Program-made: the position numbers and the translations under genes
Origin: a virus
DNA length: 29,219 nt
Virus record (IMG/VR): IMGVR_UViG_3300025112_000126
Coordinates: 1-29,219 of that record
Strand: one strand, 5' to 3'
The notes under the pieces: generated by a model
What the model saw: only the letters and a program-made list of their open reading frames with translations
Told to the model about the DNA's origin: nothing
The model's database searches: none
Shown here: piece after piece, positions 4,436 through 28,737 of the stretch
How positions within the stretch are numbered: the first letter of the stretch is position 1
How the letters are laid out: each line of letters begins with the position of its first letter

Positions 4436-4810
4436 ATGGCATATTCAAAAAAAGTTTTAGATCATTTTGAAAACCCGCGCAATATGGGTTCTATGGACAA
4501 GAAAGATCCGCGCGTTGGGACGGGCATAGTGGGCGCACCAGAATGTGGAGATGTGATGAAATTGCAAATTCAAGTTGACAGCAGCGGATGTATTGCAGAT
4601 GCAAAATTTAAAGCCTTTGGGTGTGGCTCGGCAATTGCCGCGGCATCACTGGCCACTGGGTGGTTGAGGGGGAAGACCCTTGACGCGGCCATGAAAATAA
4701 AAAATACCGATATCGTAGAAGAGCTTTCGTTGCCACCCGTTAAAATCCATTGTTCGGTGTTGGCAGAAGAAGCAATAAAAGTAGCAATTAAAGATTTGGA
4801 GGAAAAATGA
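4436..4810 (+). CDS. iscU: IscU-type iron-sulfur cluster scaffold protein
   Basis: A 124-residue protein that is nearly colinear with bacterial IscU. All functional positions fall at the same residue numbers as in E. coli IscU: Cys37 and Asp39 (APECGD), Cys63 (GCGSA), His105-Cys106 (IHCS), and LPPVK at 99-103, the segment HscA recognises. It is therefore predicted to be an active scaffold on which clusters are assembled from IscS sulfur. No iscS, hscA, hscB, fdx or iscA is present nearby, so it would have to use host partners. It sits directly behind nrdJ and overlaps the next gene by ATGA. It is much closer to host IscU than most phage genes are to their homologues, suggesting fairly recent capture. 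Confidence 0.95.
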   Translation: MAYSKKVLDHFENPRNMGSMDKKDPRVGTGIVGAPECGDVMKLQIQVDSSGCIADAKFKAFGCGSAIAAASLATGWLRGKTLDAAMKIKNTDIVEELSLPPVKIHCSVLAEEAIKVAIKDLEEK

Positions 4811-5118
4811 TTTTTAAACCGCTTGGAAGAAATATAGTAATAGAGTTTTTAGAAGACGAAAAAGACCAAGATACAATATTATTACCTTCTGATTATCGAC
4901 CCGCCGAACAACCTTATGAGATTGTTCGCGTCGCGTCCGGCTGGTGTGGAAATAAGTGTGAAAAAGAGTGGGAAGAGGGATATCATATAGTTGTAGAGGC
5001 CCACATGATACGTATATTTGATCATGCAGAAGAAACCTATTACATAATTTCAGAAAATCATGTTATTGGGTATTTTGATGAGAGCCTCGACAAAAATGTT
5101 TCAAACACCAATCCTTAA
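4807..5118 (+). CDS. Divergent GroES-like co-chaperonin
   Basis: A 103-residue protein with the strand order of the GroES/gp31 fold. KPLGRNIVIE at 4-13 corresponds to the RPL-RVIVK opening strand of GroES. TILLP at 23-27 matches the hydrophobic tip of the mobile loop that docks on GroEL. YEIVRVASG at 37-45 matches the GEVLAVGNG strand, and the end (YYIISENHVIGYF) matches the closing EVLIMSESDILAIV strand. A CGNKC pair at 47-51 is unusual. A full GroEL is encoded at 17495-19069, so this is a plausible partner encoded 12 kb away. It starts inside the iscU stop (ATGA). The fold call is by eye and moderately sure; pairing with the phage GroEL is inferred. Confidence 0.62.
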   Translation: MIFKPLGRNIVIEFLEDEKDQDTILLPSDYRPAEQPYEIVRVASGWCGNKCEKEWEEGYHIVVEAHMIRIFDHAEETYYIISENHVIGYFDESLDKNVSNTNP

Positions 5119-5839
5119 AACAGATAAGCTTGTAATTGGCTATAGCCTTTCGGCCCTTCAATATGCCAAAATAAATAATGCGATGCTCCTGGTCAACGGG
5201 ACATTGAAGCCCCATGCGCTCGATAGAATGGAGGACTTGCGTAGTTGGAACGCGCTATCGTTTGAATTGGGATTTGCGTGTCTTACACCAATCCCTTCAA
5301 AGATAGAAACTATTAAAATAGAAGAGAAGATAGCCAGTGTATTTACAGAATTCTATAAGAAGATTCAAATTTCGTTTAACGAATTATATATATTTGATTT
5401 AGAATGCGTAAGTGGGCTACCGCTCCGCGAAGAGGTAACCGAATATTTAGTCTATGACTGGTTTGATATTAAACGAGGGGCCAAACAAGCATCTTGCAAA
5501 ATTTTAAGTCCTCAAAAGTTTATTAACGAATTGGTTTTTTATCCTTCCTCCCGCCGGGACGGTAATTCTGGTGATATTAAAGATTGCTACACAAAATCAT
5601 ACATTCTGGCCGCCAAAATAAACTTGTTTGAAAATTCTCAGACGGCGGCGCGCCTGGGGGCCCTCTCTATGATTAAAAAAAATGGGCTTAAAGGCCCTCC
5701 GCGGAGCATTAATGAAAAAGTACGTTATTTAAATGTTGTGCTTCAACACGCCGATCGAGACATTTACAAACACAAAAAGAAATATATTCTAAGTGAAGAT
5801 ATACCAGAACATGTTTATTGTTGTAATGTCCATGTATAA
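5096..5839 (+). CDS. Conserved phage protein of unknown function
   Basis: About 247 residues with no enzyme motif that I can name. It opens with a segment of the form LVIGYSLSALQYA followed by a hydrophobic strand and NG, somewhat like the start of a nucleotide-binding alpha/beta fold, but the glycines do not fit a Rossmann motif. The start is uncertain: ATGs at 5060, 5078 and 5096 are in frame and none has a good ribosome-binding site. ATG 5096 gives the smallest overlap (23 bases) with the co-chaperonin gene and begins just ahead of the conserved-looking segment. The stop overlaps the next gene at TAATG, so the two are probably co-translated and may act together. Confidence 0.6.
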   Translation: MFQTPILKTDKLVIGYSLSALQYAKINNAMLLVNGTLKPHALDRMEDLRSWNALSFELGFACLTPIPSKIETIKIEEKIASVFTEFYKKIQISFNELYIFDLECVSGLPLREEVTEYLVYDWFDIKRGAKQASCKILSPQKFINELVFYPSSRRDGNSGDIKDCYTKSYILAAKINLFENSQTAARLGALSMIKKNGLKGPPRSINEKVRYLNVVLQHADRDIYKHKKKYILSEDIPEHVYCCNVHV

Positions 5840-6741
5840 TGATGCAAGAAGTTCAACAAAATTCTAATTCTTATCACTTAGCTGGGATTGTCCCGGTAGC
5901 GGGATCAGAAGCAGAGTTTGGTTTTGAGTGGCCTGACTGCTTTATACCCGTTGCTCCTAATTTTAACGCAGTTGAAGCAGCCGTTTTGGAGTGCGCTCAT
6001 CTTGGGTGTGAAACCATATGGATTGTTTGCAACGACGACGTTTCTCCCCTTATTAAATACCGACTTGGCGATCACGTTCATGATATAAACAGTCTGCAGC
6101 GCGGAAGTTTTATTAGATTTTCATCGGAAAAATATTTAAGCATTCCAATTTATTATGTGCCAATCCATCCCAAACACCGGGATAAAATTGATTGTTACGC
6201 GTGGTCCATACTGCACGGAGCGAACGTAGCATATTGGCTATGCCGGAGGTTGTCGCGCTGGATGATTCCAGATCGTTATTACGTAAGCTTCCCTTTTGGT
6301 ATTTATGATCCTCACCGCGTTCAGATGTCGCGATCGCGAATAAGAAAAGAAAAAGCATTTTATTTTTCGTTTAATGGAGATACCGTTCGCGACGGTTTGC
6401 CTCTCGGATTTACTTTTGATGCTTCTGAATGGCGACGCGCGCGCAATATTATAAAGTCAAATTCTAAAACTTATTATCCCCCACAGGCAGGAGAAAAGAT
6501 GCCTTCCCGACTGCTGCCAAAAGAAGAAAGAAACGTGTCTCGAAATTATAAATTGAAAAATGTTTTCGGTGGGGCTTCTACAGAAAATGCAACTTTAGAA
6601 GAATTAGAATGGTTTTATGACTTGACAACTTGGGATGGATATTGTAAACTATTAACATCTGATCATCGTAGACAGATAGAACGACCTTCAAAGTTAGTCT
6701 TCTCCGGTGGCAGTTTAAACAAATTAGGGGAAAAAGAATGA
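5839..6741 (+). CDS. Conserved phage protein, nucleotidyltransferase-like N-terminus
   Basis: A 300-residue protein. Its N-terminal ~70 residues follow the layout of sugar-phosphate nucleotidyltransferases (GT-A fold). AGIVPVAG comes first, then P..FIPV, then a helix with AAVLECAHLGCETIWIVCNDD, in the position where these enzymes place the substrate loop and the second strand. The usual GxGxRxxP signature is absent, so catalysis is not assured. The middle section (CYAWSILHGANVA and DRYYVSFPFGIYD) also recalls that fold. It is flanked by the unknown gene upstream (TAATG overlap) and dnaE downstream (ATGA overlap). A sugar- or base-modifying role is possible but unproven. Confidence 0.6.
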   Translation: MMQEVQQNSNSYHLAGIVPVAGSEAEFGFEWPDCFIPVAPNFNAVEAAVLECAHLGCETIWIVCNDDVSPLIKYRLGDHVHDINSLQRGSFIRFSSEKYLSIPIYYVPIHPKHRDKIDCYAWSILHGANVAYWLCRRLSRWMIPDRYYVSFPFGIYDPHRVQMSRSRIRKEKAFYFSFNGDTVRDGLPLGFTFDASEWRRARNIIKSNSKTYYPPQAGEKMPSRLLPKEERNVSRNYKLKNVFGGASTENATLEELEWFYDLTTWDGYCKLLTSDHRRQIERPSKLVFSGGSLNKLGEKE

Positions 6742-10199: not shown

Positions 10200-10343
10200 A
10201 TGGCAAAAAAAGACAGCGAAAAAGAAAGAACACAGAAAAAGAAAACTTCAATCGGAAACAGTAAGTTTACCAAACGAGGAACGCCTGGGCCTTGTGGGGG
10301 AAATAAACGATATCGGAAGCGGTACAGGGGGCAAGGTAAATGA
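10200..10343 (+). CDS. Small basic conserved protein
   Basis: A 47-residue protein, extremely rich in Lys and Arg. The first 20 residues are charged (KKDSEKERTQKKK). They are followed by SIGNSKFTKRGTPGP and a tail KRYRKRYRGQGK. I recall similar SIG.SK...KKYRGQGK proteins in marine T4-like phages, function unknown; the charge suggests RNA or DNA binding. The gene is well supported: GGAG precedes the ATG by 8 bases and its TGA overlaps the next ATG as ATGA. Confidence 0.75.
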   Translation: MAKKDSEKERTQKKKTSIGNSKFTKRGTPGPCGGNKRYRKRYRGQGK

Positions 10344-10942
10344 AAACAACAATAACCTGCAGCCCTCTTCTCAAAGAACCGGAACTTCGAAAAGCTCCCG
10401 TAATTGTGAGAGTAAATGAATTTACTAATAAAGCCGCAAAAGATTTTGCAGATCAGATATCGGCCGCCCACAACACGGGGCAATCGATTATTCCAGTTAT
10501 CGTCGATTCATATGGGGGGCAGGTATACAGCTTAATGGCGATGATATCTTCCATTAGGCATGCCGAACTTCCCGTGGCCACAATTATTGAGGGCAAGGCG
10601 ATGTCCTGTGGTGCAATTTTATTTTCCTTCGGCGACGAAGGATTAAGATTTATGGACCCAGATGCAACTCTCATGATACATGATGTTTCCACATCTGTGT
10701 GGGGGAAAGTTGAGGAAATAAAAGCCGATGCCGCCGAAGCCGAGCGCCTAAATCAAGTTGTTTACAAAATGATGGCCAGGAACTGTGGCAAAAAGGACGA
10801 TTATTTTCTAGATTTGATTCATGAACGTAGTCATGCCGATTGGTTTTTGGACGCGGCTGAAGCAAAAAAGCACAATTTGGCTAATCAAATTCGCGTACCA
10901 AAATTCAACATTACGGTTAATGTTAATATAGATTTTGAATAG
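10340..10942 (+). CDS. clpP: ClpP-like serine protease (first copy)
   Basis: A 200-residue protein of the ClpP/crotonase fold with a complete catalytic triad: Ser89 in GKAMSCGA, His114 in MIHDVS and Asp167 in HADWFLDAAEA. VIVDSYGGQV at 53-62 matches the oxyanion and substrate strand of ClpP. The length is close to bacterial ClpP without a long propeptide. No Clp ATPase or adaptor gene is visible, so it would act alone, with a host unfoldase, or as a head-maturation protease as in other phages with ClpP-fold proteases. It sits between a small basic protein (ATGA overlap) and dUTPase. Confidence 0.88.
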   Translation: MKTTITCSPLLKEPELRKAPVIVRVNEFTNKAAKDFADQISAAHNTGQSIIPVIVDSYGGQVYSLMAMISSIRHAELPVATIIEGKAMSCGAILFSFGDEGLRFMDPDATLMIHDVSTSVWGKVEEIKADAAEAERLNQVVYKMMARNCGKKDDYFLDLIHERSHADWFLDAAEAKKHNLANQIRVPKFNITVNVNIDFE

Positions 10943-14481: not shown

Positions 14482-14510
14482 TTGACATTTTAAACAATTT
14501 CTGTTAGAAT
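14482..14510 (+). promoter_or_regulatory. Sigma-70-type promoter with extended -10
   Basis: TTGACA (14482-14487), 17 bases, then TAGAAT (14505-14510) preceded by TGT, a full extended -10. Transcription should start near 14517, which is inside the 5' arm of the terminator hairpin that follows. It would drive the membrane protein, ClpP and following genes. Confidence 0.8.
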
Positions 14511-14543
14511 AAAGCCATGGTTGCCTCCGTGGCTTTATTTTTT
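14511..14543 (+). terminator. Rho-independent terminator closing the upstream gene run
   Basis: A 10-base arm (14511-14520) AAAGCCATGG pairs with CCGTGGCTTT (14527-14536) through one G-T pair, with a 6-base loop TTGCCT and then ATTTTTT. It is 33 bases after the acidic protein gene. It should stop transcripts entering from upstream. A transcript begun at the overlapping promoter lacks most of the first arm and so cannot fold it. Confidence 0.8.
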
Positions 14544-15021: not shown

Positions 15022-15600
15022 ATGTCCAACGAAGAAGACAATGAGGAAGAGATTGATTTTATTGCGGAGGAGCCCGACTTTCGAATAATAGGCCTATACG
15101 GGGATGTAAGCGAAGAGAATAGTAAAGAGACCATTGGAGCGCTTTTAACTTATCTCCACGAGGGAAGAAACGCACAAGGGCGCGCCGAGCCCATTGAGAT
15201 GGTGGTGTCAACTGGAGGGGGTAATGTCGCTGATATGTTTGCAGTTTATGATATTATGAGAATTACTCGTGAAGTATGCGACATTTCAACGTTGGGGGTT
15301 GGAAAAGTTATGTCTGCAGGCGTCCTTATTCTGGCAGCGGGCACAAAAGGACAACGACGAATCGGCAAGTACTGTCGGCTAATGCTTCATCACGTTATAA
15401 CGAGTGACCAGGGAAGTATAGTAAATGTGCGTGAAACTTGTCGAGAAGCGGAGATAATGGAAGATCTAATGTTCACGGCCCTTATTGCGGAAACGAACCT
15501 CACTAAAAGTAAAATACAAAAGATTATAAAAGGCAACATAGACACATTCTTTTCAGCCGAAGAGGCAGTCGAAATGGGGATTGCTGATATAATCGTCTAA
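15022..15600 (+). CDS. clpP: ClpP-like serine protease (second copy)
   Basis: A 192-residue ClpP-fold protein with an acidic 18-residue N-terminal extension. The triad is Ser98 in GKVMSAGV, His123 in MLHHV and Asp174 in NIDTFFSAEEA. VVSTGGGNVADMF at 61-73 is the oxyanion strand. It is only distantly similar to the first copy at 10340-10942, so the two are not a recent duplication. CGGAGA precedes the ATG. It lies directly upstream of a large conserved protein of possible virion function, so a role in processing phage proteins is as likely as general proteolysis. No unfoldase gene is visible. Confidence 0.88.
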   Translation: MSNEEDNEEEIDFIAEEPDFRIIGLYGDVSEENSKETIGALLTYLHEGRNAQGRAEPIEMVVSTGGGNVADMFAVYDIMRITREVCDISTLGVGKVMSAGVLILAAGTKGQRRIGKYCRLMLHHVITSDQGSIVNVRETCREAEIMEDLMFTALIAETNLTKSKIQKIIKGNIDTFFSAEEAVEMGIADIIV

Positions 15601-15620
15601 TTATATCAGGAGCTTATTCC

Positions 15621-19069: not shown

Positions 19070-19087
19070 CACTAGTTAGAGGTAGCC

Positions 19088-20084: not shown

Positions 20085-20388
20085 ATTTGTTGAAGTAAAG
20101 CAAATTAGAGACTTTAATGTTATGGAGCGTCGCACCTCCTCTCGTTTTGAGATGGACGAGGTATGGATTAATCCCACCTCCATACTTCAAATTCGACCAG
20201 ACTTGGTAATGAAAACCCATTTGCAAAAGGGATATCTTCCGGACGGTCTTGATGATCGACAAGAATTTTCAAAAATTAACTTTGGAAGCGGCAGCAGTGT
20301 AACCAGCGTCACGGTGGTAGGCGCGCCTGCGACTATTGCAGAAAAGATATATAGCACCGGAATACCAAATAAATTGCTGAAAGGCTGA
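20077..20388 (+). CDS. Small conserved beta-rich phage protein
   Basis: 103 residues, beginning at ATG 20077 inside the end of the previous gene. It has a strand-rich N-terminal half with VWINPTSILQIRPDL, resembling FlbD-like or LytTR-like small sheets, then a turn rich in Gly and Ser (NFGSGSSVTSVTVVGAPATIAEKIY). It ends with LLKG. I recall ITVVG.P..I..KL...KLLKG endings in small marine phage proteins, with no function assigned. The TGA overlaps the first base of an AT-rich inverted repeat. Confidence 0.6.
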   Translation: MIKFVEVKQIRDFNVMERRTSSRFEMDEVWINPTSILQIRPDLVMKTHLQKGYLPDGLDDRQEFSKINFGSGSSVTSVTVVGAPATIAEKIYSTGIPNKLLKG

Positions 20389-20415
20389 TATTTTTTGGCT
20401 TAAATCAAAAAATAT
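20388..20415 (+). repeat. AT-rich perfect inverted repeat at gene end
   Basis: Arms ATATTTTTTG (20388-20397) and CAAAAAATAT (20406-20415) are exact reverse complements around an 8-base loop. The stem has only one G-C pair per arm and no U-run directly after it, so it is a weak candidate terminator or a protein-binding dyad rather than a typical terminator. Confidence 0.55.
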
Positions 20416-22468: not shown

Positions 22469-22501
22469 AGCTAACTACTTAATATGAAAGGAAGAAATCA
22501 A

Positions 22502-22946: not shown

Positions 22947-23014
22947 TGTGTATCTTATATTTATTAGACGTTGATAAAACCTTAGAACTATTTACTGACG
23001 AGGACAACATTTAA
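22946..23014 (+). CDS. Possible 22-residue micro-protein
   Basis: GTG 22946 overlaps the previous stop as TAGTG, and its TAA overlaps the next ATG as TAATG. GGAG lies 8 bases ahead of the GTG. The peptide reads MCILYLLDVDKTLELFTDED plus two more residues. The double overlap is the usual sign of translational coupling in this genome, but the peptide is very short and may only serve to carry ribosomes to the next gene. Confidence 0.35.
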   Translation: MCILYLLDVDKTLELFTDEDNI

Positions 23015-23535
23015 TGAAGAAGCTGTTCGAGGGATGGAAAAGATTTATTAACGAAGCTGATCCGTCTTATTTTCAAGAGACGTTCAACATATTCGTGCTT
23101 CTTTCCATTAGTAAAGATACGGGAGGGAATCGGGAGCAAACTAAAAATGATATTCGTGCGCTGCCCGAAGTCCTCACCGTTGCTCCCGTAGATCCCCCCC
23201 GAGGAATCCAGCGAGACGTTGGAGTAAGAATACTCACTACCCTTAAAATTCACTGTCGACAACCCTCGCGCGGCAACACCCCACGTGTTGTAGCAAAAGC
23301 TATTTTACAAAAAATTCAGGTACTGCGGGGAGTAAAAATTATAAAATACGACATCCCCAAGGTCACCGAACTAGAAGAAACAGAAATCACTCCCGGGACA
23401 TTGCCACAGTATGCTAAAGGCCATTCTAGAAAGAAAAGAAGGCTTATTGGGAAGGGGGGCCAAAAAAATACGCCCCCCTACGTGAGCAGACCTTCTTATA
23501 AACGATCTAAATCTGCACCTCCTATGGGAGAATAA
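23014..23535 (+). CDS. Conserved phage protein with N-terminal LFEGW tag
   Basis: 173 residues. The opening MKKLFEGWKRFINEADP matches the opening of the GNAT-like protein at 26367 and resembles a T4 capsid-targeting peptide, with FINE-A as a possible prohead-protease site. After the tag, residues ~22-110 look like a ferredoxin-like alternation (FNIFVLLSISKDTGG, ALPEVLTVAPVDPPRG, VGVRILTTLKIHCR, LQKIQVLRGVKIIKYD). The basic C-terminus (HSRKKRRLIGKGGQKN...SYKRSKSAPP) could bind DNA. I recall close relatives in marine phages, with no function given. Packaging inside the virion is a hypothesis. Confidence 0.65.
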   Translation: MKKLFEGWKRFINEADPSYFQETFNIFVLLSISKDTGGNREQTKNDIRALPEVLTVAPVDPPRGIQRDVGVRILTTLKIHCRQPSRGNTPRVVAKAILQKIQVLRGVKIIKYDIPKVTELEETEITPGTLPQYAKGHSRKKRRLIGKGGQKNTPPYVSRPSYKRSKSAPPMGE

Positions 23536-25685: not shown

Positions 25686-25713
25686 TTGACTCTTTTAGAA
25701 AGATGATTATATT
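25686..25713 (+). promoter_or_regulatory. Sigma-70-type promoter for hsp20
   Basis: TTGACT (25686-25691), 16 bases, TATATT (25708-25713). Expected start near 25720, giving a leader of about 60 bases to the Hsp20 ATG. AAGGAG lies in the leader. No heat-shock sigma-32 pattern (CTTGAA/CCCCAT) is seen. Confidence 0.6.
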
Positions 25714-25782
25714 TATAGTATAGGCAGATCTATGTGACTGTCTGTAACTTTGTACTAACATTAGATGAAGGAGAAAAAGAAA

Positions 25783-26268
25783 ATGACAAGTATAATTCGT
25801 AGAAGTGCGTTCCCCGCACGCACAATTTCTAAGCGGGAACTCTTTAGCCCATTTGATGAACTAATCAATTCTATGTGGGGGGATTTTTTCCCCGATATCC
25901 ACAAAGAATTTGGACAGGACTTCTTTTTACAGGGCACTTATCCCAAAGTGAATGTTCTTACATTCGATGATCGTCTAGAGATTGAAGCAGCAATCCCCGG
26001 CTTGACCAAAGAGAATGTGGACGTTGAAGTAACCGACGGAGTGTTAACAATTCGAGGCGAAAGTAATCAGCGGACCGACGTTGAAGATTCGCAGTATGCC
26101 AGACGCGAAGTGAAGCGTTCTGCTTTTGCGCGTTCCTTCCAACTTGGTGAAAATCTTGACGAAAGTGCAATTACGGCTGCATATGAAAATGGCGTTCTAA
26201 CTCTAGCGATTCCAAAATTGCAGCCAACACAGACCGAGACACTAATTAGAAAGATTGAAATCAAATAA
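25783..26268 (+). CDS. Small heat-shock protein (Hsp20 / alpha-crystallin)
   Basis: 161 residues. The alpha-crystallin domain runs from about residue 55 (YPKVNVLTFDDRLEIEAAIPGL) through SAFARSFQLGENLD to the family signature AAYENGVLTLAIPK. The C-terminus has the I-x-I anchor (KIEIK) used for oligomer assembly. It is an ATP-independent holdase, likely keeping unfolded proteins ready for GroEL. ATG 25783 is chosen over 25765 because AAGGAG sits between them. It has its own promoter and stands between small unknown genes. Cyanophages also carry hsp20. Confidence 0.94.
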   Translation: MTSIIRRSAFPARTISKRELFSPFDELINSMWGDFFPDIHKEFGQDFFLQGTYPKVNVLTFDDRLEIEAAIPGLTKENVDVEVTDGVLTIRGESNQRTDVEDSQYARREVKRSAFARSFQLGENLDESAITAAYENGVLTLAIPKLQPTQTETLIRKIEIK

Positions 26269-26278
26269 AAGAAGGAAA

Positions 26279-26359
26279 ATGAAGTTACCCCGCAGGCGCG
26301 GGTGGATTGATAGGTTGGTTGGGCCCTATCACCTTTCTCTTTACCCGGGTGCATACTAA
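26279..26359 (+). CDS. Possible 26-residue leader peptide
   Basis: ATG 26279 to TAA 26357-26359, reading MKLPRRRGWIDRLVGPYHLS and on to YPGAY. AAGGA is present but only two bases from the ATG, so translation is uncertain. Its stop lies inside the inverted repeat that contains the next gene's start codon, which is the geometry of a translational-coupling leader. Confidence 0.22.
   Translation: MKLPRRRGWIDRLVGPYHLSLYPGAY
26308..26331 (+). terminator. Possible terminator after hsp20
   Basis: TGATAGG (26308-26314) pairs with CCTATCA (26325-26331) across a 10-base loop, followed by CCTTTCTCTTT. The tract is pyrimidine-rich rather than pure T, so termination would be partial. A smaller CCCGC/GCGGG hairpin precedes it at about 26289-26302. 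Confidence 0.4.
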
Positions 26360-26372
26360 TTATAGTATGCAC
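26349..26372 (+). repeat. Perfect inverted repeat containing a start codon
   Basis: Arms GTGCATACTA (26349-26358) and TAGTATGCAC (26363-26372) are exact reverse complements around ATTA. The right arm includes ATG 26367, the start of the GNAT-like gene. TATAGT at 26361-26366 within it could also be a -10 box, but the -35 is weak. As RNA it would hide the start codon; as DNA it is a plausible operator. Confidence 0.75.
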
Positions 26373-27101
26373 AAACTTTTTGAGGGCTGGCGCTCTTATC
26401 TCACAGAATCAGAAGCGGAAATAAGCAACGAGTTAACTGAAATTGCTATCAATTCGATGCTAGCTCTTTCTGTTTTTCAAGATGAAGAAAATTTAAACGA
26501 AGAGATCGCCGCCGGATTAAATTATATCGTCAGCTTGGCGGAAAACCCAAATGCCGAAGTGGTCGAAAGATTTGCTGAGTCGCTGTATAAAGGCAAGCGT
26601 TCTGGCTTTTTAACTTATTATTCTATTGATGAACTGGGCCGAATGGATCTTTATTTATTAGAAGATCAAAGCGCAGGCTTCGCAATTAAAGATGGAGATG
26701 ACATAGTAAGTGTTCATAATAATTCCGATTTGCGAGGTCTTGGTAATGAATTCATGCGAAAGGCAAAAGAAGTTGGAGGTGGTCGCTTGGACCACTTTGA
26801 TGGTTTTTTGAGTGGCCTGTACAGAAAACATGGGTTTATCGACGTATATGAAATTTATCAGTGGAGCGAACAATATAAACCTGCAACATGGAATTATGAA
26901 CCAGTAAATGTTTTGAATTCCGAAACCAGTGTTTATGCCGAAGCGCTCGATGAAATGATACATGACGATCCCAACGATCTTCCAAACGAGGAAGTGAAAG
27001 TACAGGCGGAAGATAATTTTTCATTAGAAATAAATCCCAACTTAAAATATAACAGTTATCGCTATGGCCGGCCTGATGTAATTATGAGGCGTCTGGGATA
27101 A
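26367..27101 (+). CDS. GNAT-like protein with N-terminal LFEGW tag
   Basis: 244 residues. It opens MHKLFEGWRSYLTESE, the same tag as the protein at 23014, with YLTE-S as a possible prohead-protease site. Residues ~75-160 resemble a GNAT acetyltransferase core: a strand with GFAIKDGDDIVSVHNNS, then DLRGLGNEFMRKAKEVGGG in the acetyl-CoA loop position (R-x-x-G-x-G/N), LDHFDGFLSGLYRKHGFIDVYEIYQW closing the fold. The acceptor is unknown. The C-terminal ~70 residues are acidic and unassigned, ending DVIMRRLG. Upstream in-frame starts (TTG 26307, GTG 26349) are rejected because the tag begins at ATG 26367. No ribosome site is visible ahead of it. Confidence 0.66.
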   Translation: MHKLFEGWRSYLTESEAEISNELTEIAINSMLALSVFQDEENLNEEIAAGLNYIVSLAENPNAEVVERFAESLYKGKRSGFLTYYSIDELGRMDLYLLEDQSAGFAIKDGDDIVSVHNNSDLRGLGNEFMRKAKEVGGGRLDHFDGFLSGLYRKHGFIDVYEIYQWSEQYKPATWNYEPVNVLNSETSVYAEALDEMIHDDPNDLPNEEVKVQAEDNFSLEINPNLKYNSYRYGRPDVIMRRLG

Positions 27102-27105
27102 AGCT

Positions 27106-28737
27106 ATGGTAAGCAAAATCACAATAAAACTTTCTCACCAGGTCGTTGAAGTGAAACAACTTTTAAACGAAGTCTCTCTGGAGAAAGCAAAAGAAAGCCT
27201 TGACTCCAAAAAACTGCGCAAAGCTATTAAGCAATACGCCATAAATTATGCACAGTCAAACCCATGGGAGTGGAAAGATATTTTTGACGACGAGGGATAT
27301 AATATACTCCCCGACAAACTAGACCTCATGGTGTCCACCATGCACGACAGCCTCAAAGGCTGGATTTGGGATATGATCCCCGAGGACATTGAGACAGACC
27401 GCACTCGTCGCGACAAATCTAATCAGGCCCTGGCGCTCTTGTGGTTGCTACGTTTAATGCGAACGCAGCCGCGCATGATGAAAAAGGTTGTGCACGACTA
27501 CGCCGAAGATGATGAGTCGATTATGGAAGATCTTCATATGTATTTTAATTACAAGCACCTTATGGAGAAGCCAGACCTTAATCAGATTGGAGGCATCGGT
27601 GAACTGGCTCAAGTGGTTCTCGACGCTCGCGATGACATTCGCGATTATCAAGAAAAGCAGAGCTATGCTAATGTCGAGGAAGGCACCGAGGTCTTCCGAG
27701 ACGACGAGGATTGGTTTATTGCTGCGCTCCACAACAAGGGAGCAGCATGCGAATTGGGGAAGGGCACCGACTGGTGCACGGCAGCGCCTGGGTTAGATTA
27801 CTTCGCTGAGTACTACGAAGAAGACGATCCGCTGTTTTACTTTGAGCAAAGAGAAGAAATCCCGGATGCCCCTCTCGGCTTTCGCTATCAGCAGCGCATG
27901 CAATTTCATTATGGATCTGGTCAGTTCATGGACGACAATGATCGCCCGCTGCCGCACCGGATCGCTTCCCGCCTTCATAATATGCTCATGCGGACAGAAG
28001 CACCCGAGAAGTATTCAATTCTGCGTAAGCATGATAGAAAATTTAAAATAAAAGATCCTTCAACCCATCCCGAGGTTTTAGATGAACTACTCGATAGCGA
28101 GGAAATGGAGTACGGAGACTACATGAAGATAGCGGACCACCCAAACGCTTCCGAGGAAACATTAAGAAAGTTGATGCATCTAGATATTTCCGCGAAAGAT
28201 TACCTAGGCGGTGTGCAAGGGCTAAATAGCTATGCTGTTAGCCTTAAAGGCGTCCTCGCCAAACGCGAAGTATCTCCGGAATTCGCGCAAGAATTGTGGG
28301 AAAAGACATGGGGGAATTATCAGGAAGCCCACGAAAATTGGGACCGATCCCTTCGCGGTTCAGAGCACAATAAAGGAGACTCCGACTGGTATGCAAACGT
28401 CTCGCCGCGTCAGTTTCACCGCCTCAAAGAATTCTTCCTGCCCGTGTGGAAAAAGATTGCCTGGAATCCTACGGTTGCCACCTCTACGCTAGAAGAAATA
28501 CTAGAAAAGACAGACCCCGATGATTACGTGAAAGAAATGATAAAACAAAAGATTATGGCGCGTGAGGCTGGGGAAGAAGAACTTGACTTTCACGAATTGA
28601 GACGAAGAGTCGTGGCACTGAAGAAAGAAGACCCCGAGTTCGCATCGCCCCGCATTACTAGGTCGAGGCTGCCGAGAAATCCCGAGGATCTCCAGGAGTC
28701 AAAAGTTTTTTCCCGATGGCAAAAAATTATAAATTAG
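27106..28737 (+). CDS. Large phage protein with GTxWC motif and C-terminal tag
   Basis: 543 residues. The centre (about 195-250) has the arrangement ALHNKGAACELGKGTDWCTAA ... FAEYYEEDDPLFYF. The G-x-GT-x-WCTA box followed by a Y/F-rich strand recurs in uncharacterised phage proteins I recall. Around it are helical repeats: STHPEVLDELLDSEEMEYGDYMKIADHPNASEETLRKL looks like a leucine-rich-variant or HEAT-like unit. The last residues, KVFSRWQKIIN, match the LFEGWKRFIN tag of two nearby proteins but at the C-terminus. QLLNE-V near residue 20 may be a protease site. Function unknown; internal virion protein is a hypothesis. It starts 5 bases after the previous stop with a weak ribosome site. Confidence 0.68.
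   Translation: MVSKITIKLSHQVVEVKQLLNEVSLEKAKESLDSKKLRKAIKQYAINYAQSNPWEWKDIFDDEGYNILPDKLDLMVSTMHDSLKGWIWDMIPEDIETDRTRRDKSNQALALLWLLRLMRTQPRMMKKVVHDYAEDDESIMEDLHMYFNYKHLMEKPDLNQIGGIGELAQVVLDARDDIRDYQEKQSYANVEEGTEVFRDDEDWFIAALHNKGAACELGKGTDWCTAAPGLDYFAEYYEEDDPLFYFEQREEIPDAPLGFRYQQRMQFHYGSGQFMDDNDRPLPHRIASRLHNMLMRTEAPEKYSILRKHDRKFKIKDPSTHPEVLDELLDSEEMEYGDYMKIADHPNASEETLRKLMHLDISAKDYLGGVQGLNSYAVSLKGVLAKREVSPEFAQELWEKTWGNYQEAHENWDRSLRGSEHNKGDSDWYANVSPRQFHRLKEFFLPVWKKIAWNPTVATSTLEEILEKTDPDDYVKEMIKQKIMAREAGEEELDFHELRRRVVALKKEDPEFASPRITRSRLPRNPEDLQESKVFSRWQKIIN

Follow-up and report, generated by a model that had tools for sequence, protein, structure and literature searches.

Results

A tagged gene behind hsp20 and the position of its start codon

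We analyzed a 29,219-nucleotide stretch of viral DNA, called here the window, in which a gene for a tagged protein follows an hsp20 gene and begins inside an inverted repeat. The promoter, frames and repeat at this locus are as follows:

25686-25713, + strand, sigma-70-like promoter TTGACT-16-TATATT before hsp20 (10 of 12 consensus matches), of putative function
25765-26268, + strand, hsp20 gene (PF00011, E 2.7e-22), a possible source of read-through RNA
26279-26359, + strand, leader frame of 26 codons with a Shine-Dalgarno sequence at 26271-26276; its stop codon is the TAA of the late box described below
26349-26358, + strand, left arm of the inverted repeat
26363-26372, + strand, right arm of the inverted repeat, with ATG 26367-26369 inside; RNA fold -13.9 kcal/mol
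26367-27101, + strand, GNAT-like gene of 244 amino acids with the N-terminal tag MHKLFEGWRSYLTE; 14 relatives at 48-69% identity

Sigma-70-like sites as good as the one before hsp20 numbered 37 in the region, as against 25.6 in shuffled sequences. The frame of the GNAT-like gene is open upstream to a TTG at 26307, with a GTG in frame at 26349, and gene calling by the longest frame sets the start 60 bases too early here. In 10 of the 14 relatives the alignment begins at the residue encoded by ATG 26367. In L003 it begins at residue 4, and a GTG occupies the position of this ATG; as to the others, L013 is cut and lacks the gene start, and L014 and L015 have different N-termini. From these alignments and the GTG of L003, ATG 26367, rather than the upstream opening of the frame, is very likely the correct start, despite the 60 open bases before it.

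The description of the product as GNAT-like, made in the original prediction, received weak support. In a tblastn search the product matched 32 phage records at 27-37% identity, none covering 80% of it, and putative acetyltransferases as well as minor capsid proteins were among the records listed; Pfam returned no family for the product, and PHROGs a single family of unknown function.

In nine relatives the gene adjoins a GroES-like gene and lies downstream of it, as judged by tblastn to window positions 4807-5118 (L004-L008, L010 and L015) or by eye (L012 and L014); the GroES-like copy in the window itself matches Cpn10 weakly (E 0.002, below the curated cut-off). The next genes in L004-L007 and L010 match window positions 5060-5839 and onward. 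Given this GroES-side context, the gene appears to have been relocated in the window to its site behind hsp20. The following gene, 27106-28737, was tried as a bridge to closer relatives, and none was found. The 29-kb window also encodes GroEL in addition to Hsp20, and two of its genes (10340-10942 and 15022-15600) match PHROG families of proteases, either ATP-dependent or for head maturation.

An exact dyad over the start codon

Positions 26349-26372 read GTGCATACTA-ATTA-TAGTATGCAC, with arms complementary at 10 of 10 positions and a loop of 4 bases. As originally predicted, the exact 10+10 repeat holds ATG 26367 in its right arm, and no ribosome site precedes this ATG, a purine-rich stretch being absent. 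The RNA of 26340-26385 folds at -13.9 kcal/mol (z -3.9), and the hairpin is also predicted in longer RNA. Since the window holds four perfect 10-bp repeats with loops of 3-10 bases, whereas 200 shuffles gave a mean of 0.27, the dyad is beyond chance, yet it is not unique in the window. Perfect repeats of this length also lie at 15584-15609 and 20388-20415, both at gene ends, the former just before a Shine-Dalgarno site. The exact 24-base dyad had no matches in viral_contigs, and a search of 25700-27300 against Rfam gave no match.

Absence of the repeat from homologous loci of related phages had been named as a refuting result, and those loci do lack it: among the 13 relatives with a readable start (L013 was left out; L005, L006 and L007, which resemble one another near the gene start, were included), none has the dyad, and the longest stem over the start codon is 1-3 bp.

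The leader frame translates as MKLPRRRGWIDRLVGPYHLSLYPGAY followed by a stop codon, and GAAGGA at 26271-26276 is, by eye, a good Shine-Dalgarno sequence for it. The frame had been said to end inside the repeat, 8 bases before the ATG; its stop codon (26357-26359) does fall at the left arm, which ends at 26358, but the gap is 7 bases. A tblastn search of phages found no relative of the leader peptide, and a loose search of the relatives' loci gave only weak scattered matches, none convincing. A degenerate DNA pattern had one match, in L017, where the peptide lies inside a long unlike frame, and we judged it to be chance. We also considered the leader as the eroded end of the relatives' GroES-like gene and rejected this, DNA alignment having given only short matches.

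A one-way motif marks starts in related contigs

The stop codon of the leader falls where it does because its TAA belongs to an 8-base motif that recurs before genes in this phage group and that we take to be a late promoter box:

22474-22481, + strand, possible third late box ACTACTTA, -10 from ATG 22484, the start of this ORF being uncertain
22987-22994, + strand, second late box ACTATTTA (motif match), -27 from ATG 23014 of a tagged gene (MKKLFEGWKRFINE)
26355-26362, + strand, late promoter box ACTAATTA, found by upstream motif enrichment, its first base at -12 from the ATG
26367, + strand, predicted transcription start at the A of the start codon, within 1-2 bases, from T4 geometry and the -13 peak described below

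We counted the motif in 124 metagenomic phage contigs (1.16 Mb after duplicate removal, 1,132 ORFs). The contigs used for the motif, distance and Shine-Dalgarno counts were fetched by tag pattern, in a scan that gave at least 120 stretches, or by GNAT or Hsp20 similarity, and each ORF of at least 100 amino acids was taken to start at its first ATG or GTG. In the 30 bases before these starts, ACTA[AT]TTA occurred 82 times and its reverse complement once, and its density was 2.4 per kb upstream of starts versus 0.13 per kb in ORF bodies. Among 8-mers enriched before starts, ACTATTTA ranked first and ACTAATTA second, both above Shine-Dalgarno words. The distance from box to start was bimodal, with peaks at -27/-26 and at -11 to -16 (peak -13); the close class comprised 43 boxes at -11 to -16, with none at -17 to -19, and many further boxes lay 20-60 bases upstream of starts. 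Shine-Dalgarno words accompanied 6 of the 43 ORFs with a box at -10 to -16, as compared with 78 of 97 with a box at -21 to -45 and 528 of 967 without a box in those ranges. Alignment of 133 boxes revealed no conserved -35 element, the strongest of the 25 upstream bases being a T (59%) 15 bases before the box.

Enrichment on one strand fits a promoter or an RNA signal. A promoter is favored because far boxes mostly come with a Shine-Dalgarno sequence and close boxes mostly without one, and because -13, the peak of the close class, is also the distance from the RNA start at which the T4 late box begins. Since T4 late boxes span -13 to -6, according to excerpts of PMC1524935, the close class should give leaderless mRNA. 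Comparison shows the box and its geometry, and it gives good support to a predicted promoter and leaderless class. A search of literature text for the two box words together with late promoter and phage returned nothing related by title, although a consensus given as a single word or a logo would escape it.

ACTANTTA has 8 matches in the window, all of them on the coding strand. Three stand before starts (22474, 22987 and 26355), four lie inside ORFs, and the match at 19071 is -17 from a doubtful GTG start, so that 4 or 5 of the 8 either fall within an ORF or lack a clear start downstream. From the ORF-body rate of 0.13 per kb, the chance that any one start has a box at -16 to -10 is about 1/1,000. 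The 15-mer ACTAATTATAGTATG recurs before another gene (L160:4393), with the same box and spacing, and a spacer of 4 bases between box and ATG occurs in 18 of 104 tagged promoters, the window included; at this distance +1 would fall, by strict T4 geometry, on the U of AUG 26367. In a pattern scan, the spacer TAGT was found at three promoters of tagged genes, and CAT did not precede the box at any of them. The six start-codon promoters of record G001 all have ACTAATTA.

Among the relatives of the GNAT-like gene, a late box precedes the start in L002 (-15), L009 (-15) and L011 (-13), and is absent before the gene in 10 of the 13. The three that have it lie outside the GroES context and share ACTATTTA or ACTAATTA with the window just before the start; L011 has 12 consecutive bases in common with the window there.

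An operator over a TATAGT -10 box with a leaderless message had been offered as one reading of the site. The kind of element was rightly seen, in that a one-way motif is present, but the box is ACTAATTA at 26355-26362 and not TATAGT. The latter (26361-26366) abuts the ATG, and as a -10 element it would place the RNA start within the gene; a promoter scan listed no sigma-70-like pair at this place, and with it no -35 partner. Two further candidates were set aside. A copy of ACTAATTA before 25436 was not counted, the ATG there lying, by eye, inside another frame, and TAATTATA alone occurs 4 times in the window against 1.67 times in shuffles, a count of 4 being reached by 14 shuffles in 100.

Candidate late-transcription genes and motifs in related records and isolates

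We searched 20 records, our own choice from many more, for phrog_234, the family of the T4 late sigma gp55, and found it in 12, including all 11 of those above 100 kb. These matches are weak (E 3e-9 to 7e-4), with none in 14 control genomes, and two of the ORFs, when scanned back, matched phrog_234 alone. G001 (118 kb), which holds relative L006, has such a match. A T4-type head protease and major head protein were found in 10 of the 11 records above 100 kb, neither of them in G001. The 29-kb window fragment has no late sigma gene. The gp45 clamp family phrog_223 was found in the T4 control and in none of the 11 records, Microcystis phage Mel-JY01 or Flavobacterium phage immuto, this being a family search that a different clamp could escape.

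For both the window helicase and the major head protein of G003, the two best-listed named records were an uncultured 484-kb phage and Mel-JY01, with immuto close behind. Immuto has a marginal phrog_234 match (E 0.008) and Mel-JY01 has none. Within 50 kb of immuto, the main coding strand carries 13 copies of ACTANTTA and the opposite strand 2. A looser form, nnTAnTTAT, lies before 18 of 53 starts in this phage; the terminase, portal, sheath, tube and tape measure genes have it, and the major capsid gene does not. In Mel-JY01 (50 kb), ACTANTTA is unenriched (3 versus 4 by strand), and a related word, ATATTTAT, is enriched.

The N-terminal tag and other observations

The tag M-K-L-L-[LFM]-E-N-W-R-x-[YF]-L-x-E is encoded at 23014-23055 and 26367-26408 of the window. 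Among the loci collected, it heads 400 proteins that differ in their first 40 residues, and a single locus may have as many as 8 of them. The tag is similar to the capsid-targeting sequence of T4, which includes a head-protease site, [LI]xE in T4. Residues 10-18 contain [LI]xE in 341 of the 400 tagged proteins versus 37 and 39 in control stretches, where E6 and W8 of the tag were fixed by the search and residue 12 partly by the tag scan pattern; outside that pattern, [LI]xE is present in 201 of 254 tagged proteins. Four tag strings occurred in no paper of the literature searched. Two neighboring genes of L003 (4751 and 4992) are identical over the 27 bases that run from the start codon through the tag, as would be expected had the tag been copied as a DNA module.

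Several layouts were seen in passing. In the region 6111-6476 of L163, a phage-encoded tmRNA gene ends at 6462, directly before the late box of the next tagged gene, and in the region 1178-1529 of L251 another ends at 1489, shortly before such a box. L016 (5300-5410) has hsp20, then a terminator-like hairpin at 5333, the late box ACTATTTA at 5371 and a gene at 5400 (MKSNFTNDWRKFINR, a tag-like start), a layout behind hsp20 that resembles that of the window. At 14482-14543 of the window, a strong sigma-70-like promoter (TTGACA-17-TAGAAT) runs into a hairpin (14510-14537) followed by TTTTTT; this hairpin is terminator-like by eye and was not reported by the terminator scan, and a very short RNA or an attenuator is possible.

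Stems over the start codon at other predicted leaderless promoters

Among 104 tagged leaderless promoters, a set drawn partly from a pattern scan that allowed spacers of 3-6 only, three have stems of at least 8 bp over the ATG (window, 10; L175, 11; L251, 8), where 0.18 are expected. Another set, of 139 leaderless ORFs, includes contigs fetched by the leaderless pattern and excludes the window and L251 (their ORFs started upstream). A single ORF of this set has such a stem, a number reached by 14.5% of shuffle sets, and 26 of the 139 have an AUG pairing above 0.9, versus 14.5% of shuffles. A dyad with the same center as that of the window extends to at most 5 bp at 43 other leaderless boxes, and we rejected the dyad as a general part of the promoter on this ground.

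Discussion

In our judgment, the site at 26355-26367 is probably a T4-like late phage promoter, of a class from which transcription begins at the start codon, giving the gene a leaderless start. We infer the role of gp55 and the RNA start at the AUG as follows. A gp55-type late sigma, of the kind matched in relatives, would direct RNA polymerase to ACTAATTA at 26355-26362, and late RNA would start at or beside A26367; with that start the late mRNA would be leaderless and need no Shine-Dalgarno sequence. Read-through RNA from hsp20 would carry both arms of the repeat and have its AUG paired away, while late RNA, made without the left arm, would leave the AUG free. Translation of the tagged, probably virion, protein would thereby be delayed to late infection.

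That the hairpin masks the AUG in read-through RNA is a suggestion to which we give somewhat less than even weight. Masking is a plausible local device and not a rule, because the 139-ORF set shows no clear excess of stems. The fuller picture, a T4-type late system with many promoters at the start codon and a few genes, this one included, with a hairpin that hides the AUG, we put forward only tentatively. The leader frame, if translated, would open the hairpin and so work against masking.

Not far short of an even chance, the dyad may be an accidental extension of ACTA-ATTA-TAGT, itself a 4-bp dyad, by six more pairs, so that only the promoter matters. Leaderless promoters show no clear enrichment of long stems, and the three box-bearing relatives have 0-5 bp around the box center, as this account would have it; however, stems of at least 10 bp arise in 0.04% of shuffled upstream regions, and the three stems of at least 8 bp among the tagged promoters, that of the window included, exceed the 0.18 expected.

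The translational switch of the original prediction, in which a ribosome that reaches the end of the 26-codon frame would melt the hairpin and reinitiate at ATG 26367, now seems unlikely. Its attractions are the good Shine-Dalgarno sequence, a stop 7 bases before the ATG, the persistence of the hairpin in longer RNA, and an upstream frame in L175 that also stops inside the left arm, there of an 11-bp hairpin. They are outweighed by the dyad's absence from all 13 relatives, by a leader that has no relative in phages and only weak scattered matches elsewhere, and by a stop codon that belongs to the promoter box.

A role for the dyad as a DNA operator that covers the late promoter is equally improbable. 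The perfect 10+10 dyad is centered on the box, and excerpts of PMC2988022 provide a precedent in I-TevI, which has such an operator over its own late promoter; but the half-site GTGCATAC appears nowhere else in the window, and the dyads of no more than 5 bp at the other leaderless boxes do not fit an operator. Least probable of all is an intrinsic terminator for hsp20 RNA formed by the hairpin and T26377-26381, which the terminator scan did detect and which has a counterpart in the terminator-like hairpin between hsp20 and the late box of L016, but whose T run begins 5 bases past a stem with A-T at 6 of 10 pairs, in a region with 12 terminator-like sites versus 14.2 in shuffles.

A late promoter at the start codon can be compared with T4 late promoters (gp55, TATAAATA). 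Both have an 8-base box, and the close class here begins 13 bases before the start codon; the aligned flanks lack a -35, a gp55-like sigma is found in related records, and a related motif precedes terminase, portal and tail genes of the isolate immuto. They differ in that the box here is ACTA[AT]TTA, the gp45 clamp was not found by family search, and a large class of boxes is so near the ATG that the RNA would have no leader. In the excerpts of PMC1524935, the late box variant of Aeh1, CTAAATA, begins at -12, and it is close to the motif described here. Leaderless mRNAs are likewise similar in that the distance from promoter to ATG leaves no 5' UTR and there is no Shine-Dalgarno sequence; here, by contrast, they are predicted from geometry and would be driven by a gp55-type promoter.

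For masking, the parallels are T4 e, soc, 49, I-TevI and segB, and mobE of Aeh1, in which a hairpin masks the start on a longer RNA and the late promoter escapes it. Excerpts of PMC3014915 and PMC2988022 place the hairpin of e, soc, 49 and I-TevI on a longer early RNA and the late promoter close upstream or in the 5' strand of the hairpin. As in control of the gene e type, the start codon here is in the 3' arm, the late box lies within the hairpin and a co-directional gene lies upstream; the window differs in having no Shine-Dalgarno sequence, in that late RNA would begin at the AUG, and in that masking is our proposal.

From these results, a sequence rule can be drawn for the late promoters of T4-like phages that form a widespread group, represented mainly by metagenomic sequences, and many late mRNAs of this group are predicted to be leaderless. 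The rule explains start codons without ribosome sites, which simple gene calling misplaces. Since the boxes precede tagged genes and the tag is capsid-targeting-like, late timing and packaging may be readable together from sequence. If the proposed mechanism is true, where the promoter lies would by itself shift expression from early to late, at the levels of transcription and of translation.
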